NCBI GenBank assembly: GCA_002279355.1
Contig: NCBV01000015.1
Location: 1 to 43,945 of the forward strand
Length of the DNA: 43,945 nucleotides
Direction of reading: 5' to 3'
DNA from: Acidiphilium sp. 37-60-79
GTDB lineage: Bacteria; Pseudomonadota; Alphaproteobacteria; Acetobacterales; Acetobacteraceae
Part shown: piece after piece, positions 2,403 to 20,743 of the stretch
Numbering within the stretch: position 1 is the stretch's first letter
Layout of the letters: each line of letters opens with the position of its first letter
The notes under the pieces: generated by a model
The model's database searches: none
Told to the model about the DNA's origin: nothing
The model's input: the letters and a program-made list of their open reading frames with translations, nothing else
Program-made: the position numbers and the translations under genes

Positions 2403-2420
2403 TGTCATAGTTTCTTTACA
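2403..2420. promoter_or_regulatory. Candidate PpsR/CrtJ repressor site over the hemN start
   Basis: TGT (2403-2405), twelve bases, then ACA (2418-2420) fits the TGT-N12-ACA motif used by the aerobic photosynthesis repressor PpsR/CrtJ. It covers the expected -10 region and the first base of hemN, where a repressor would block polymerase. The motif is short, and one such match is expected by chance every few kb. Its placement in front of a bch operon is what makes it credible. PpsR often binds paired sites; I see only one. Confidence 0.5.
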
Positions 2421-3790
2421 TGACAAATGCAGATCTCATTGCGCGGTATGATGGTCGGGTGCCGCGCTATACGAGTTATCCGACGGCGCCGCATTTTTCG
2501 GCTGCGGTGGGGCCGGATCGGTATGGGGCTTGGTTGCGGGATTTGGCCCCGGATGTGCCGATTTCGCTGTATCTGCATGTGCCGTTTTGTGATCGGCTTT
2601 GCTTATATTGCGGCTGCAATACCGGAGTGGTGCGCCATGAGGCACCCCGCCGGGCTTATGCGGCGCTGCTTGAGCGCGAGGTGCGGCTGGTGGCCGCGCA
2701 GATGGGGCGGCGGCGGGTTAGTCATGTGCATTGGGGCGGGGGGACGCCGACGACGCTGCCAGCCGATTGTTTGACCGGGCTGATGGCGTCGGTTCGCACC
2801 TTGTTTGACGTTACCGATGATGCGGAAATTGCGATTGAGTTGGACCCAACGGCGCTGCCGACGGACCGGCTCGCGGCGCTGGCGGCGATGGGGGTCACGC
2901 GGGTTAGTCTTGGCGTACAAGACCTTAATCCGGCGGTGCAGCGAGCGATTGGTCGTCTGCAATCCTATGAGGAAACCGAGGCGTGCGCGCAGGCGGTGCG
3001 CGGGATTGGGGTTCGGGCAATCAATTTGGATTTGATTTATGGCTTACCGCTGCAAACCGAACAGAGCGTGGCCGAGACGGCGCGGCGGGCGCTGGGGTTA
3101 GAGGCAGGACGGGTAGCGGTGTTTGGCTATGCGCATGTGCCCTGGATGAAGCGGCATCAAGCGCTGATCCAAGAGGCGACATTGCCCGGCGCGCAAGCGC
3201 GATTTGATCAGCGCGCGGCGATCGGGCGGGTGTTAGAACAAGAGGGCGGCTATTTGCCGGTCGGGCTCGATCATTATGCCCGCCCGGACGATGCGCTGGC
3301 GCAAGCCGCTCACCATCGGCAATTACATCGCAGTTTTCAAGGCTACACGACCGATGCGGCGCCGGCTCTGATCGGCCTCGGCGCAAGTGCAATTGGCTGC
3401 CTGCCGCAAGGCTACATCCAGAATGCGACCCGTGTTCCGGACTATGCGCAGGCGATCCGTGCCGGACAGGCGGCCACGATGCGCGGGGTGGCGCTGTCAG
3501 CAGAGGATCGGCTCCGGCGGGCCGTCATTGAGCAGGTGATGTGCGATTTACATGCTGATTTGCCCGGTCTTGCGCGGGCGCATCAGGCCGATCCTGCGCC
3601 CTTGTTAGCCGCGGCGCGCCGCCTTGAAGGGTTCGCGCGTGACGGGCTGGTGAGCTGGGATGGCGCGATGGTGCGCGTGACCGAAGCCGGCCGCCCATTC
3701 GTGCGCAATGTTGCTGCTTTATTCGATGCTTATCTCAATCAACACAACGCCGATAACGATACAAAGCCGCGCCACGCCCAAGCGGTGTGA
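2420..3790 (+). CDS. hemN: Oxygen-independent coproporphyrinogen III oxidase HemN
   Basis: A 456-residue radical-SAM enzyme that decarboxylates coproporphyrinogen III to protoporphyrinogen IX without oxygen, in the cytoplasm. The N terminus carries the HemN signature [11 protein letters not shown] (about residues 16-26). The iron-sulfur motif is C57-x3-C61-x2-C64 followed by GC66, and a WGGGTPTTL segment comes next. Length fits the family. The ATG at 2420 has no Shine-Dalgarno sequence before it, and the FNR-type box spacing predicts a transcript starting at or very near this A, so translation may be leaderless. The gene ends 23 bases before bchE and almost certainly shares its transcript, feeding protoporphyrin to the bacteriochlorophyll branch under low oxygen. 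Confidence 0.95.
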
Positions 3791-14160: not shown

Positions 14161-14174
14161 TTGATCATCATCGA
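14161..14174. promoter_or_regulatory. Near-perfect second FNR/FixK-type site
   Basis: TTGAT-CATC-ATCGA matches nine of ten defined positions of the TTGAT-N4-ATCAA consensus. Its centre is 45 bases upstream of the centre of the perfect site at 14206-14219, so two dimers could bind in tandem. It could also be chance in an A+T-richer promoter. Confidence 0.45.
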
Positions 14175-14205
14175 GAGTTTGCGTCGTGCTGCACGTGCGA
14201 ACCAA

Positions 14206-14219
14206 TTGATATAGATCAA
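14206..14219. promoter_or_regulatory. FNR/FixK-type site for the cytochrome-porin operon
   Basis: TTGAT-ATAG-ATCAA matches all ten defined positions of the FNR/FixK consensus, extended by an A/T pair to a 16-bp palindrome (14205-14220). Its centre is 64.5 bases before the ATG at 14277; class II spacing would put the transcription start near 14254, leaving a leader of about 23 bases with AGGGGAG at 14262-14268. This predicts activation at low oxygen. Confidence 0.85.
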
Positions 14220-14276
14220 TGCCCCCTGCCCGGCTCGGGCGCATGGATTACGGATCGAGATAGGGGAGATTTTGTT

Positions 14277-15611
14277 ATGCGTAAGGTCGTTCAACAATCA
14301 GGTTTGCTCGCGATACTAGCCTTGAGCGCCTTGGCGCCGGGGCGGGCGTGGGCGATTCCGGCCTTTGCCGCGCAAACGGGCGAGCCATGTTCGGCCTGCC
14401 ATATCGGCTTTCCACAGCTCACGCCGTACGGGCGGGATTTCAAGCTCGAAGGCTATATCGCTGGCGGGACGTTTCCGACCTGGAAGAATTTTGCGCTGAT
14501 GTCGCAAATCGGGTTCACCCAAATGCATGACAAGGTTCCGGGTGGATTGGCGCCAGGTTTCAAGAGCAATGATGCCTGGGCGGCCCAGCAAACCAGCCTG
14601 TTTTACGGTGGGGCGCTCGATTCGAAGCTTGGCATCGGCGCTTTCGTGCAGGTTACCTATGATGGCATCGCCCACCAGCTCCACTGGGATAACATCGATA
14701 TTCGTCTAGCGCGTCCTGGCCAGCTGTTCGGCAAGCCATTATTCTGGGGCCTTACATTCAATAATGCGCCGACAGTCACGGATTTATGGAATTCGCCGCC
14801 GAGTTGGGGCTATCCGTTCATCCCCTCAGGATTAGCGAACGGGCCGGCGGCGGAGCAACAAATACCGGCCTTGGCGCAGGGTGTTTATGGCGTCGGCGCC
14901 TATAGCGCGCTTAACCTGACGCCCGAAAACATGCTGTATACGGAAGTAGATTTTTACAAATCACTACCAAACCGGATGAGCTATGCACTTGGTGTCGGCC
15001 CGGCAACCCAAATTGATGGCTTAGTCCCGTATGTGCGGCTCGCGGTGCAACATCAATGGGGCAATTCATCGATTGAAGTGGGCAGCTACGCGCTGATGGA
15101 TCGGCCTTATCCGCAGGGCATGATCAATGGTCCGACCGATCAGTTCCTGGATATCGCGGCGGACAGCCAGTTTCAATATATCACCGCCAAGCAAGCCTTC
15201 TCGGTGCAAGCGAACTTCATCCACGAATCGCAAAGCTGGCAGGCCAGCTATCCGCTTGGCCTCGTGAGCAACCCGGCGGACACGTTGAATACCGCAACCC
15301 TTACTGTCTCAGAATTGTTGCTGCAAAAATATGGCATTACTGAATCATACAGCATAATCTATGGAAATAGTGATGTTTCACTCTACGGAAATGCCAATGG
15401 CAAGCCCAATACCACGAGTTGGACCACCGAGCTTGACTATTACCCGTTCAATAATGGCGGTCCGGCGTTCCTGCCCTGGTTAAATGCGAAGTTCTTTGTT
15501 GAAAATACCCTCTATCCGACGTTTAATGGCTTGGCCCGTAATTATGACGGTGCCGGCACGAACGCCCAGGCCAATGATACGCTGTTTGCCGGAATATGGC
15601 TCGCTTTCTAA
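14277..15611 (+). CDS. Cyc2-like outer-membrane fused monohaem cytochrome c-porin
   Basis: A 444-residue exported protein. A Sec signal peptide (about residues 1-26, ending GRAWA) is followed at once by a single haem site, C38-S-A-C-H42, within AIPAFAAQTGEPCSACH, and then a FPQLTPYGRDFKLEGY segment. The remaining 380 or so residues are rich in alternating aromatic and polar stretches and end in LFAGIWLAF, with the terminal Phe typical of BAM-assembled beta-barrels. This plan (one N-terminal haem plus a porin-sized barrel) is that of Cyc2-type iron-oxidising cytochromes, and the residues around the haem resemble that group. Such proteins pass electrons across the outer membrane. Direction (Fe(II) oxidation or outward transfer) cannot be read from sequence. 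A ribosome-binding site AGGGGAG lies 8 bases upstream. Confidence 0.72.
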   Translation: MRKVVQQSGLLAILALSALAPGRAWAIPAFAAQTGEPCSACHIGFPQLTPYGRDFKLEGYIAGGTFPTWKNFALMSQIGFTQMHDKVPGGLAPGFKSNDAWAAQQTSLFYGGALDSKLGIGAFVQVTYDGIAHQLHWDNIDIRLARPGQLFGKPLFWGLTFNNAPTVTDLWNSPPSWGYPFIPSGLANGPAAEQQIPALAQGVYGVGAYSALNLTPENMLYTEVDFYKSLPNRMSYALGVGPATQIDGLVPYVRLAVQHQWGNSSIEVGSYALMDRPYPQGMINGPTDQFLDIAADSQFQYITAKQAFSVQANFIHESQSWQASYPLGLVSNPADTLNTATLTVSELLLQKYGITESYSIIYGNSDVSLYGNANGKPNTTSWTTELDYYPFNNGGPAFLPWLNAKFFVENTLYPTFNGLARNYDGAGTNAQANDTLFAGIWLAF

Positions 15612-15637
15612 TCGTTTACCTTCTGAAAGGACTGACT

Positions 15638-16033
15638 ATGCTCAACATGAAAAATTCACTTATCGCCGCCATCGCACTCGCAGTTGCCCTTGGCAGTTTG
15701 GGCGTGGCCCATGCCGCCAATGTGGCGAAGGGCAAGAGCGTCTTTGCCGCTCAATGCGCCGCCTGCCATAGTGTGGCGCCGGGGCAGAATGGTATCGGGC
15801 CGAGCCTTGCCGGGATTTATGGCAAGCCAGCGGCCAGCACCACGGGCTTCATGTTTTCCCCGGCGCTGAAATCTTCGCACATCGTCTGGACCAGCGCCGC
15901 ACTCGATAAATTCTTGGCCAACCCGCAAGGCGACGTGGCCGGGACGAAAATGCCGTATATGGGCATGCCGAATGCGAAAAAACGCGCTGACGTGGTGGCC
16001 TATATCAAGACGCTCGGCGCCAAAGCGCCATAA
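15638..16033 (+). CDS. Periplasmic class I cytochrome c
   Basis: A 131-residue protein with a signal peptide (residues 1-26, ending GVAHA) and one haem site C40-A-A-C-H44. Other class I landmarks follow: GPSLAGIYGK, then the axial methionine in TKMPYMGM, and a C-terminal helix ADVVAYIKTL. It should be a small soluble periplasmic electron carrier. The ATG at 15638 follows GAAAGGA (15625-15631); an earlier in-frame start at 15596 overlaps the upstream gene and lacks a site. It begins 27 bases after the cytochrome-porin stop, so the two form an operon, and it is the obvious periplasmic partner for the outer-membrane haem. Confidence 0.92.
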   Translation: MLNMKNSLIAAIALAVALGSLGVAHAANVAKGKSVFAAQCAACHSVAPGQNGIGPSLAGIYGKPAASTTGFMFSPALKSSHIVWTSAALDKFLANPQGDVAGTKMPYMGMPNAKKRADVVAYIKTLGAKAP

Positions 16034-16061
16034 CGCTTCATCAGAATTTCGTGATCAACGC

Positions 16062-16109
16062 GATGGCTTTGATGGGTCTCTGCATGGTTCCATCAAAGCC
16101 ATCATTTTT
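16062..16109 (+). terminator. Strong terminator of the cytochrome operon
   Basis: GATGGCTTTGATGG (16062-16075) and CCATCAAAGCCATC (16090-16103) form a perfect 14-bp stem with a 14-base loop, followed by ATTTTT. It closes the two-gene cytochrome operon and separates it from the convergent ligase gene. Confidence 0.92.
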
Positions 16110-17393: not shown

Positions 17394-19049
17394 TTAAAAG
17401 GTTGCGGAGGTAAGGTGGCCGGCTTGCAGGCGCCAGACCCGGTCGATCTTTTCCACGCCGGTCAGCCGATGGGTGATCAGCAACACGCTGCGGCCTTGGG
17501 TGGTGAGGTTGAGCGTGGTCATGAAATCGCGCTCGGTCGCGGGATCCAGCCCGGCGCAGGGTTCATCGAGGATCAGGATAGGGGCGGGGCTGAGCAGGGT
17601 GCGAGCCAAAGCGAGGCGACGCCCCTCCCCGCCAGAGAATTGCGCGCCTTGCTCACCCACCCAAGCATCGAGCTGATCGGGCAGGCCGCGCACCATATCG
17701 GCGATGCGCGCCGCATCCAGCGCGGCCCATAATTGGTCATCGGTGGCGTCAGGGCGAGCGAGGCGCAAATTGTTGCGCACTGTGTCGGCAAACAAATGCG
17801 TGGTTTGCGCCAGATAAGCGATGCGGGTGCGCACATCGGCGGCGCTGAGCTGGGCCAGATCGACGCCGCCGAGCCGGATGCTGCCCGCTTGCGGCGCAGC
17901 AAGTTTCAACGCGAGGGCCGCGAGGGTGGATTTACCCGCGCCGGAGGGCCCAAGCACCGCGATGCGCGCACCGGCGGGGAGTTGCAGCGATAGACCATCG
18001 AGCACCACGGGGTGATCAGGACTCCAGCGAAATTGCACATCATCGAAGCGGAGTGCTGTGGCGGCAGATAGCGGCACCGGATCGGCAGGATCAGGCACGC
18101 TGGGCGGGGCTTCTGCGGCGGCGATCACGCGACTGGCGGCGGCAGCGGCAACCCCAGCGAGCGCACCAGCGCGTGGCATGCCGCCAACGGCCTCAAAAGC
18201 CGCAATCACCACGAAAGCCGCGATGAGCGCCGCAATCGGTGCGTGGGCACCGCCGATCAGCAGCACCGCGAGCAGGGCCGCTTGGGCCGCAAGAAATGAC
18301 CCGGCTTGCAGCACAGCGCCACGGGCGGCGAGGCCGCGTTCCGCGCTGAACAACCCGGCCTCCTTGGCTTGAATATTGGCCAACATGCGGCCTTCCGCGC
18401 CAAAAACCTTGATCTCGCGCAAGCCCGTCAACGCATCGAGCGCGGCGACGCGCAACGAAGATGCGGCCTCGGTTTGCGCCGTAGCCGCAGCACGGGCGGC
18501 GCGCATGGCGCGAATCGGCAATAGGCCGACGATCAGCACAAACAGAGCCAGCACAAGGATCGCGGCAATCACGCTATCGCGGCCAACCGCCCAAGCGAGG
18601 ATCGGCACCAGCATCAGCGCGGACAAGCCCGGGACCAGAATGCGCAGATAAATCCCGTCCAGCGCGTCGATATCGGTGATCAGGCGCGAGAGTAAATCAC
18701 CTGCGCGGCGCAGGCCAAGGCCGCCAGCAGCGCTCCCGGCGAGGCCGCGCAGGAACCAGACGCGCAACGCCGCCAGGGCGCGGAAGGTCGCATCATGGGT
18801 CGATAGCCGTTCGAGATAGCGCAACACCACGCGCGCCACACCGAGAATCGACAGGCTCAGCGGGACCACCAGCACGAGGCCCGCGATGGCGGCGCCGATA
18901 AAACGGGCCGATTGCGCCATCAGCGCAATACCACTGGCGAGCGCCGCGAGGGCGATCAACGCGCCGAGGATCAGCGCCGGAGCTTGGCGGCGCCAGAGGG
19001 AGAGGATGCGCAGCAAAGGCGGGCGCGGATTAAAGCCGGGTTCGGTCAT
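17394..19049 (-). CDS. cydC: Thiol reductant ABC exporter subunit CydC
   Basis: A 551-residue half-transporter: six membrane helices in residues about 20-290, then an ATPase domain with Walker A GPSGAGKST, signature FSGGEGRRLALARTLL and Walker B ILILDEPCAGLD. With CydD it moves thiols (cysteine, glutathione) or haem-related reductant to the periplasm, needed for cytochrome bd and c-type cytochrome assembly. Its ATG overlaps the cydD stop by four bases (ATGA), so translation is coupled. The cytochrome bd genes cydAB are not here. The neighbouring c-type cytochromes would depend on a suitable periplasmic redox state. Confidence 0.92.
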   Translation of the reverse strand: MTEPGFNPRPPLLRILSLWRRQAPALILGALIALAALASGIALMAQSARFIGAAIAGLVLVVPLSLSILGVARVVLRYLERLSTHDATFRALAALRVWFLRGLAGSAAGGLGLRRAGDLLSRLITDIDALDGIYLRILVPGLSALMLVPILAWAVGRDSVIAAILVLALFVLIVGLLPIRAMRAARAAATAQTEAASSLRVAALDALTGLREIKVFGAEGRMLANIQAKEAGLFSAERGLAARGAVLQAGSFLAAQAALLAVLLIGGAHAPIAALIAAFVVIAAFEAVGGMPRAGALAGVAAAAASRVIAAAEAPPSVPDPADPVPLSAATALRFDDVQFRWSPDHPVVLDGLSLQLPAGARIAVLGPSGAGKSTLAALALKLAAPQAGSIRLGGVDLAQLSAADVRTRIAYLAQTTHLFADTVRNNLRLARPDATDDQLWAALDAARIADMVRGLPDQLDAWVGEQGAQFSGGEGRRLALARTLLSPAPILILDEPCAGLDPATERDFMTTLNLTTQGRSVLLITHRLTGVEKIDRVWRLQAGHLTSATF

Positions 19050-20743
19050 AATACGCTATCGAGCCTGGATAAGGTGCGTGCGCCAAGATCAAGCTTGCGG
19101 CCGGAAAATTCGTGCGCGAAGGCGGCATGGGTCGCGAGAATAACGGTTCGGCCCAAGGTCAGGCGGCGCAGTGCGTCCAGCACGTCGCGCTCGGTCGCGG
19201 GATCAAGCTGAGCGGTTGGTTCATCGAGCAAGAGCAGTTGAGCGTCTTTGAGGAAGGCGCGGGCGATGGCGATGCGCTGCGCCTGCCCCCCCGAAACGCC
19301 GAAGCCACCATCACCGATCAGGCTATTCAGCCCGTCGGGCAGCGCATCGGTAAACGCCGTAACGTGAGCACGTTCGGCGGCGCGCTGCACCGCCTCATCG
19401 CTCGCCTCGGGTTGGCCGAGGCGAATATTATCAGCGATTGAACCGGCGAACAAAAAGGGTTTCTGGCTGATCAGCGCGGTCAAGCGGGCCAAAGCGGCGG
19501 GAACAACCGACTCGATCGGCGCACCGTTGATCGTGATCCGGCCCGATTGCGGGCGCACGCCGCCGAGCAGCAGCTCGATAATGGTGGATTTACCCGAGCC
19601 GGACGGGCCGACCAGCATCATGGTTTCGCCCGCCGGCAGGCGAAAGCTGAGATGGCTGAATACCGGGCCGCGCGCATCGCTCCAGGCGAAACCGACATCC
19701 TCGAACGCGATGGCCACACCTTGGGCTGCGACGGTGCGGATCGGTGGGGTGGCTATCGCGGCGACGGGCTCGGCGCTGGGCAGGGTCGCAAGCCCTTCGG
19801 CAGCGGCCTGGGCGGCCATGCGGTCTTGATAGACCGCGCTGAAATTGCGGAATGGGGTGAAAAACTCCGGAACCAGCAGCAGCGCGAACAAGGCGGTCGG
19901 TATTAAAGCGACATTGCCAGCGCGCAGCGGTGCCGCGAAGCGAAGCGCAATCCCGATCAGGGCAACAGCGGCCGCCAGATCGAGCGCGGTCGAGGAGAGA
20001 AACGCGACCCGCAACACGCGCATGGTGCGTTGGCGCAATTCATCGGCAGCAACCCCAAGGGCGATGGCTTCCGCCTCGGCACGGCCCGCGAGCACGATGG
20101 TGCTGATGCCGCGCACCCGATCAATGAAGCGGGTCTGCAGGCGGGTAAGAGCGGTAAATTGGCGCCGCGAGGCGGCGGCGGCGCCGATTCCCGCGAACGC
20201 CATCGCGATGGGCACCAGTAGGCCGGTGACAGCAAGGATTAGCGCTGTGCGCCAATCGACCAGGAGCGCCGCGAGAACAACGAGGGCCGGGCTGATCAGC
20301 AAAATGGCGGCGGCGGGGATCCACCGGCCAAACAAACCATCCAGCGCCTCAATCCGGTCCACCACCACGCCGGTTAGTTCGGCAGAATGGCGGCCGCGCA
20401 AGCCGGCCGAACCAAGGCTGAGCAAGCGCGACAACACCGCGCCGCGCAGCCGACGGCGGGCGCCAATGCCGAGCGATTTGGCCAACCGCTCCTGGAGGAT
20501 GGTCAGGCCAGCGCGCAAAAGGGCTAGGAGCGAAAAACCTGCGGCGGCCAGAAAAATACTGTGATCGGTGGGATGCAGCACGGCGGCGAGCAGTCGGGTC
20601 GCGCAAAAAATCTGGCCGATGGCAAGGGCGGTTTGCGCGACGCCGGCGGCGATGGCAGGCGAAGCAAGGCGCCGCCCCGCGCCGATTTCATGCCGAAGCC
20701 AGGATTTAGCCGCGATGGTTTCTGCGCTGTCACTCTGAGCCAT
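19046..20743 (-). CDS. cydD: Thiol reductant ABC exporter subunit CydD
   Basis: A 565-residue ABC half-transporter, partner of CydC. The membrane domain spans about residues 30-320; the ATPase domain has Walker A GPSGSGKST, the Q-loop in ALISQKPFLFAG, signature VSGGQAQRIAIARAFL and Walker B LLLLDEPTAQLD. It is the first gene of a minus-strand operon cydD-cydC-ligase. The ATG at 20743 has GGAG unusually close (about two bases), so initiation may be modest. It diverges from panC across 215 bases. Confidence 0.92.
   Translation of the reverse strand: MAQSDSAETIAAKSWLRHEIGAGRRLASPAIAAGVAQTALAIGQIFCATRLLAAVLHPTDHSIFLAAAGFSLLALLRAGLTILQERLAKSLGIGARRRLRGAVLSRLLSLGSAGLRGRHSAELTGVVVDRIEALDGLFGRWIPAAAILLISPALVVLAALLVDWRTALILAVTGLLVPIAMAFAGIGAAAASRRQFTALTRLQTRFIDRVRGISTIVLAGRAEAEAIALGVAADELRQRTMRVLRVAFLSSTALDLAAAVALIGIALRFAAPLRAGNVALIPTALFALLLVPEFFTPFRNFSAVYQDRMAAQAAAEGLATLPSAEPVAAIATPPIRTVAAQGVAIAFEDVGFAWSDARGPVFSHLSFRLPAGETMMLVGPSGSGKSTIIELLLGGVRPQSGRITINGAPIESVVPAALARLTALISQKPFLFAGSIADNIRLGQPEASDEAVQRAAERAHVTAFTDALPDGLNSLIGDGGFGVSGGQAQRIAIARAFLKDAQLLLLDEPTAQLDPATERDVLDALRRLTLGRTVILATHAAFAHEFSGRKLDLGARTLSRLDSVL

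Follow-up and report, generated by a model that had tools for sequence, protein, structure and literature searches.

Positions 14161 to 16109 of a 43,945-nucleotide stretch of DNA from Acidiphilium sp. 37-60-79 (positions 1 to 43,945 of contig NCBV01000015.1; hereafter the window) hold two adjacent genes, open reading frames (ORFs) A and B, that encode a predicted Cyc2-like cytochrome-porin and a small secreted cytochrome c. The pair lies behind a perfect FNR-type box. Sequence comparison makes it highly probable that the two proteins have this architecture and that their genes are under low-oxygen control, and the pair probably serves extracellular electron transfer with iron. The two-gene unit is less new than an earlier, sequence-only reading of the region had taken it to be, because a gene pair of this kind in Acetobacteraceae is already in print (PMC10715153). 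The finding is real and partly published; what it adds is a testable regulatory layer, the conserved box, which was not found in print and is the strongest new result.

The features of the unit are as follows.

14161 to 14174, no strand assigned: one-mismatch FNR-type box, TTGATCATCATCGA; doubtful, as the nearest relative (locus L013) lacks it
14206 to 14219, no strand assigned: perfect FNR/FixK-type box TTGAT-ATAG-ATCAA, TTGATATAGATCAA; start codon 71 bases on
14262 to 14268, plus strand: likely ribosome binding site AGGGGAG, read from the sequence
14277 to 15611, plus strand: ORF A, Cyc2-like cytochrome-porin, 444 residues
14277 to 14354, plus strand: probable signal peptide of ORF A, residues 1 to 26, cleavage after AWA, by inspection
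14355 to 14417, plus strand: haem segment of ORF A, IPAFAAQTGEPCSACHIGFPQ, with the Cyc2 signature (Arg replaced by Ala) and CSACH at residues 38 to 42
14490 to 15605, plus strand: predicted 16-strand outer-membrane barrel of ORF A, residues 72 to 443, before the C-terminal Phe 444
15638 to 16033, plus strand: ORF B, secreted class I cytochrome c, 131 residues, CAACH at residues 40 to 44
16062 to 16109, plus strand: intrinsic terminator, 15-pair stem then T5

Architecture of the Gene Pair

The main features that the sequence-only reading had assigned to ORF A are borne out. A hydrophobic N-terminal core ending in AWA is judged by inspection to be a signal peptide, CSACH is the sole CxxCH motif, and the barrel-sized remainder ends in phenylalanine. 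AlphaFold2, supplied with a 35-row alignment of the window protein and 34 homologues, predicts 16 strands (E72 to E443) with a mean predicted local distance difference test score (pLDDT) of 82.1 and a predicted template-modelling (TM) score of 0.80. A Foldseek comparison of this model with the PDB returned 146 matches at E 0.001 or better. Among the 50 matches listed, nearly all are outer-membrane barrels, with AlgE first (E 3e-8) and with general porins as well as OprO and OprP in the list; the last two are structures also named for the Cyc2 of Mariprofundus (PMC8406198). TM scores by query length of 0.26 to 0.46 make the fold class clear and single out no close relative. The absence of a barrel, which had been named beforehand as telling against the proposal, is not what the model and its matches indicate; ORF A is predicted to be a 16-strand outer-membrane barrel. 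Sequence searches with ORF A gave no Pfam family, nothing meaningful in NCBIfam (an SDR model came first, at E 0.024) and no relative in the PDB (best E 0.38 for the sequence alone, 0.54 as a profile).

ORF B starts 26 bases past the stop codon of ORF A, not 27 as had been read, and the identification of its product as a soluble cytochrome c stands: it matches PF00034 (E 2.7e-11), the class I cytochromes c. It also matches the NCBIfam model of cytochrome c-550 CycA (E 3.4e-20), yet under that model's cut-off, and its PDB relatives include cytochromes cy and c2. The strong terminator noted after the pair is likewise supported, by a fold in which a stem of 15 pairs is followed within two bases by five T (z −2.88; one of 200 shuffles did equally well); a pattern scanner that allows loops of at most 8 bases detected none at 16062 to 16109. 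A sigma-70 scan upstream of ORF A found no promoter-like site.

The wider neighbourhood is not conserved among relatives' loci, and the constant unit is the gene pair; for this reason ORF A and ORF B are treated as the unit. Within the window's clade, 18 of the 31 intact homologues have a cytochrome c gene, in every case monohaem, within 150 bp downstream. A cytochrome c gene follows as closely in 5 of 29 other members of the order, in 1 of the 12 loci L110 to L121, and in 8 of 17 other members of the phylum, four of these last being dihaem. From this sequence evidence ORF B is likely the periplasmic partner of ORF A.

Relation to Cyc2

The Cyc2 proteins of Acidithiobacillus, Mariprofundus and Gallionellaceae resemble ORF A in having a signal peptide, an N-terminal CxxCH followed by PxL, a 16-strand barrel and more than 365 residues. 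The published length criterion is at least 365 residues (PMC8406198), and ORF A has 444. It carries a single N-terminal CxxCH after its signal peptide, as judged by inspection, a PxL after that motif (CSACHIGFPQL), and, from AlphaFold2 and the barrel matches of Foldseek, 16 strands. The exception is the signature AxPxFAR[Q/K][T/Y], a consensus of homologues that its authors call unique to Cyc2 (PMC8406198): ORF A reads AIPAFAAQT, with alanine in the position of the arginine. ORF A is thus Cyc2-like by architecture and homology, with one published defining feature failed. The assignment to Cyc2 in the sequence-only reading holds to that extent; strict membership was rejected because the signature arginine is absent. 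The MtrAB and PioAB conduits join a decahaem cytochrome to a large, separate barrel of 26 strands; the present pair is not of that kind, with a single CxxCH in each of its two proteins and a predicted barrel of 16 strands.

The homology itself is clear from profile comparison. In hhalign, alignment A1 matches alignment A4 with 99.3% probability (E 7e-21, 326 aligned columns), and by this measure ORF A is homologous to Cyc2-type cytochrome-porins, that is, to the signature-bearing proteins. Profile A1 matches 88 of 398 genomes of the phylum sample, 65 of them in a single family, f38. The 11 sampled f38 proteins all bear the exact published signature, and the best matches of the family span roughly the first 60 to 150 of the 451 profile positions, a stretch that takes in the haem domain and the earliest strands. 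Given the signature and the number of matches, f38 is inferred to be the Zetaproteobacteria. In a tree of 66 protein rows, with the truncated L031 and duplicates left out, the window protein falls inside a supported Acidiphilium clade (5 rows 100/98, 13 rows 100/98) that is separate from the f38 clade.

In the window's clade, 29 of 31 intact homologues have alanine at the signature position. The arginine is kept in 5 of 29 other homologues of the order, in all 12 of L110 to L121 and in 14 of 17 other homologues of the phylum (26/29 phylum-wide). Loss of the arginine is common across the order and not confined to the window's clade, whose own mark is the near-uniform alanine. ORF A thus differs from Cyc2 in the signature residue, in having its own clade and in the FNR-type box upstream. 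Its genome differs from those of Cyc2 systems in having ctaD on another contig and no rusticyanin match; across the phylum, 0 of 398 genomes exceeded the cut-off in a search for the rusticyanin family.

Homologues of ORF A were found at 16 named loci, of which 7 carry Acidiphilium in their titles. The gene was matched in all 13 Acidiphilium genomes searched, some copies being fragmentary, and in 46 of 299 genomes of the order; homologues are spread over 16 of the order's 65 genera and 35 of the 213 genera in the phylum sample. Seven scanned loci with no intact recognisable ORF (L012, L016, L039, L053, L056, L057 and L059) were dropped and copies identical from the haem site onward were collapsed, which together left 89 loci; L060 to L069 were also left out. 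From the 88 matching genomes of the phylum, 29 loci besides the window's own were examined. In five of the 13 Acidiphilium genomes (G149, G193, G265, G299 and G303) ORF A has several matches, which include fragments and copies with stops. A plasmid labelled Acidithiobacillus ferrooxidans (CP084173.1, 49232 to 50942) gives the same match, 69.6% over the same span, as an A. cryptum plasmid, which may reflect recent transfer or a labelling problem.

A cytochrome gene also follows cyc2 in Acidithiobacillus, and a similarity network joins the Cyc2 of that genus with Acidiphilium homologues (PMC10654088). The Cyc2 homologues of Acetobacteraceae, the same pair in the same bacterial group, often adjoin a gene for a mono- or dihaem cytochrome, and iron oxidoreduction has been proposed for them (PMC10715153). 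A possible Cyc2-like cytochrome has also been reported from the genome of an Acidocella (PMC8357290).

A Recurring FNR-Type Box

The box at 14206 to 14219 is a perfect TTGAT-N4-ATCAA. Such boxes occur at 12 places in the 3.07-Mb genome, and a reversed control occurs at none. At least four of the 12 lie inside long open frames and are probably due to chance. One precedes hemN, and others, named by reading, precede genes of the Crp family, a zinc alcohol dehydrogenase and a CBS-domain protein. The hemN box is in the window itself (2372 to 2385) and stands before a gene for oxygen-independent coproporphyrinogen III oxidase (2420 to 3790; TIGR00538, over cut-off).

The same arrangement recurs across the homologues, as is expected of an FNR/FixK regulon. 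Among 60 homologues of the order, 26 have a perfect box within 200 bp upstream and 44 have one with at most one mismatch, against 0.02 and 0.39 expected from shuffles. Among 28 of the phylum the counts are 2 and 5, against 0.01 and 0.34. L111, with 41 bases upstream, was omitted from these sets. Because the homologues are related, the chance expectations overstate independence, and the recurrence is best regarded as a footprint of the box and not as independent trials; start codons were set by rule, so that box distances may be off. In an alignment of 15 upstream regions picked for a box or near-box, the columns without variation comprise nine positions of the box, a single G right behind it and the ATG, and the spacer varies. 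The box at 14206 is beyond chance, and its recurrence makes the FNR-type control proposed from the sequence likely. The proposal of a companion near-perfect box at 14161 fares less well. The nearest relative, 92% identical, lacks it, so that it may be a chance occurrence and was rejected as an established second functional site.

An N-terminal cysteine cluster together with a central cysteine is the motif expected of an oxygen-sensing FNR, and sites of the TTGAT-N4-ATCAA type are common to FNR, FixK and Dnr proteins. The genome encodes two Crp-family proteins that have the cluster and the central cysteine (four cysteines, by reading) and two further Crp-type regulators that have no cysteine cluster. 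The latter two would suit a different explanation, in which the box is bound by an NO-sensing regulator like Dnr or NnrR and the redox partner is something other than iron, such as humic substances, other metals or nitrogen oxides. The spread of homologues over many genera of the order and phylum is in keeping with this, as is a formate/nitrite transporter gene about 5 kb from the pair in Ideonella dechloratans. The presence of hemN among the boxed genes argues the other way, and the five plasmid regions with annotation include no gene named as a nitrogen-oxide reductase, a weak point, as annotation covers these five only. This explanation is rather improbable.

Precedent for control of this kind comes from pioABC of Rhodopseudomonas palustris TIE-1, likewise an alphaproteobacterial operon for electron transfer with iron, which has two FNR/FixK-type boxes and is under FixK control (PMC3050613). 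By its description it is set apart from the window pair by a decahaem cytochrome, a separate outer-membrane protein and a high-potential iron-sulfur protein. A search of the open-access literature turned up no report of cyc2 under FNR control, and the main text on the Acetobacteraceae pair (PMC10715153) makes no mention of FNR or regulation. Two distant homologues with a dihaem cytochrome gene after them (L096 and L106) have a perfect FNR-type box upstream as well.

Proposed Electron Transfer and Its Direction

The following scheme would account for these features. ORF A and ORF B would form one transcription unit, turned on by an oxygen-sensing regulator of the FNR/FixK type when oxygen is scarce. 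ORF A would reside in the outer membrane, with its single c-type haem near the periplasmic mouth of the barrel, and ORF B would be a mobile periplasmic cytochrome c that trades electrons with that haem. The pair could then move single electrons across the outer membrane with no need of a multihaem wire. In the outward direction electrons would pass from quinol through periplasmic cytochromes to ORF B, to ORF A and on to soluble Fe(III) in acid water, and the outcome would be the low-oxygen-inducible ferric reduction reported for some Acidiphilium. Fe(III) reduction by the genus is indeed restricted to low oxygen in some strains, by a mechanism not revealed in detail (PMC8790237, PMC7142476). 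An oxygen-inducible Fe(III)-reducing system was inferred in 2002 (told in PMC8790237), and as of 2020 no conclusive identification had been made of the ferric reductase in Acidiphilium and Acidocella (PMC7142476).

Sequence alone does not decide which way the electrons flow; outward flow is most likely. The main reason to favor it is found on two plasmids, pACRY03 of A. cryptum JF-5 (L151) and pACMV3 of A. multivorum (L152), where a homologous pair lies near ubiT, ubiU and ubiV, a neighbourhood that ties the pair to ubiquinone-based respiration in oxygen-poor conditions. UbiT, UbiU and UbiV serve oxygen-independent ubiquinone synthesis. Their genes are Fnr-controlled in E. coli (PMC10470549). 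The three proteins score over NCBIfam cut-offs on pACRY03 and are 95 to 97% identical on pACMV3, and on both plasmids a perfect box lies about 80 to 90 bases before ubiT. The porin gene is in two pieces, so annotated on pACMV3 and so matching on pACRY03.

Several observations weigh against outward, low-oxygen ferric reduction. A transposase gene stands between the ubiT-side box and the pair on both plasmids, so that a role of the box for the pair is not established there; the plasmids belong to other species; and the UbiTUV genes were not found at the other homologue loci examined, many of which have short flanks. No box with at most one mismatch precedes 16 of the 60 homologues of the order. 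Residues 16 to 44 of the AlphaFold2 model, which include the haem site, have a pLDDT below 50, so that the model does not fix the haem position. Acidiphilium sp. SJH reduces Fe(III) constitutively and A. cryptum JF-5 does so at any oxygen level, so that the activity is not low-oxygen-specific genus-wide; moreover, SJH and A. acidophilum reduce no Fe(III) without oxygen (PMC8790237). ApcA of A. cryptum has been named as a ferric-reducing protein of the genus (PMC7677001). Finally, characterised Cyc2 proteins oxidise Fe(II) (PMC8406198), and inward flow is possible because an aa3-type cytochrome c oxidase is encoded.

In the inward case the pair would support microaerobic oxidation of Fe(II), with electrons passing from ORF A to ORF B and on to the aa3-type oxidase, a route put forward in print for acidophilic Acetobacteraceae whose bc1 complex is deranged (PMC10715153). 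Besides the known activity of Cyc2, two features of the genome suit this route: its only PF00115 match is CtaD, of the cytochrome c oxidase type, and the product of ORF B is similar to cytochromes c2, cy and c550. Control by low oxygen is less in keeping with a pathway that respires oxygen, although a microaerobic one would fit. The signature-bearing loci L110 and L112 to L121, for which 200 bp upstream were available, show neither a perfect nor a one-mismatch box in any of the 11 cases. RuBisCO has no match in the genome (assembly 96% complete), though a heterotroph would not need it. Microaerobic Fe(II) oxidation is held to be unlikely.

A second inward route would join the pair to photosynthesis: at low oxygen and in the light, Fe(II) would supply electrons that reach PufC and the reaction centre by way of ORF A and ORF B. 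The genome encodes the reaction-centre L and M subunits and PufC, which is in keeping with the earlier view of a host that makes bacteriochlorophyll, and the pioABC operon is activated by FixK under anoxia through its two boxes (PMC3050613). A special link with photosynthesis is not sustained. Reaction-centre genes are over cut-off in 16 of 46 carriers of the ORF A gene in the order versus 55 of 253 non-carriers (Fisher p = 0.06), and 30 of the 46 carriers have no reaction-centre match. The perfect box is present in 9 of 16 carriers with a reaction centre and in 10 of 29 without, and when one mismatch is allowed the counts rise to 12 of 16 and 24 of 29; genome G239, in which the gene has a stop, is left out of these counts. 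Both the gene and a perfect box are present in one genome without a reaction-centre match (G169), the ORF A of which is identical to that of A. iwatense. Because the association among carriers is weak and boxes occur without reaction centres, phototrophy is not the common denominator, and photosynthesis was rejected as a general reason for the pair. With the lack of a RuBisCO match also counting against it, photoferrotrophy is distinctly improbable as the role of the pair.

Outward ferric reduction remains the best explanation; taken whole, with its direction, it is about as apt to be wrong as right. A broader evolutionary proposal may be offered tentatively, as one that could well prove mistaken: a clade of Cyc2-like cytochrome-porins in acidophilic Acetobacteraceae may have lost the signature arginine and gained oxygen-sensing control, turning the design of an iron oxidase into the low-oxygen-inducible ferric reductase of Acidiphilium and its relatives, a minimal two-haem wire for outward respiration. 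The pair is a good candidate for the wire between such bacteria and extracellular iron, and the recurring low-oxygen box before a Cyc2-like pair offers one operon and one regulator class as a handle on the ferric reductase of Acidiphilium. It also counsels caution, as a Cyc2-like gene is not always evidence of aerobic iron oxidation.

Neighboring Genes and Related Loci

Downstream of the pair, past a Wzy-like gene and about 1.3 kb away on the other strand, lie genes for CydC and CydD (17394 to 20743), a thiol reductant exporter over NCBIfam cut-offs that is useful in cytochrome assembly. Both are also present in L013 (89 to 91%), and a few other loci have weaker ABC matches of up to 38%. Beyond the window's own loci, the Wzy gene was seen only in the near relatives L013 and L048. 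The cytochrome P450 gene upstream was seen only in the window's own loci; the L013 sequence stops 315 bases upstream.

Elsewhere in the same genome (L124/L150, contig C87), a paralogue of ORF B, 42% identical, follows an open frame that weakly matches TonB-dependent haem receptors. On plasmid pSBC1_3 of Caballeronia sp. SBC1 (L153), a gene for a high-potential iron-sulfur protein lies upstream of a homologous pair.

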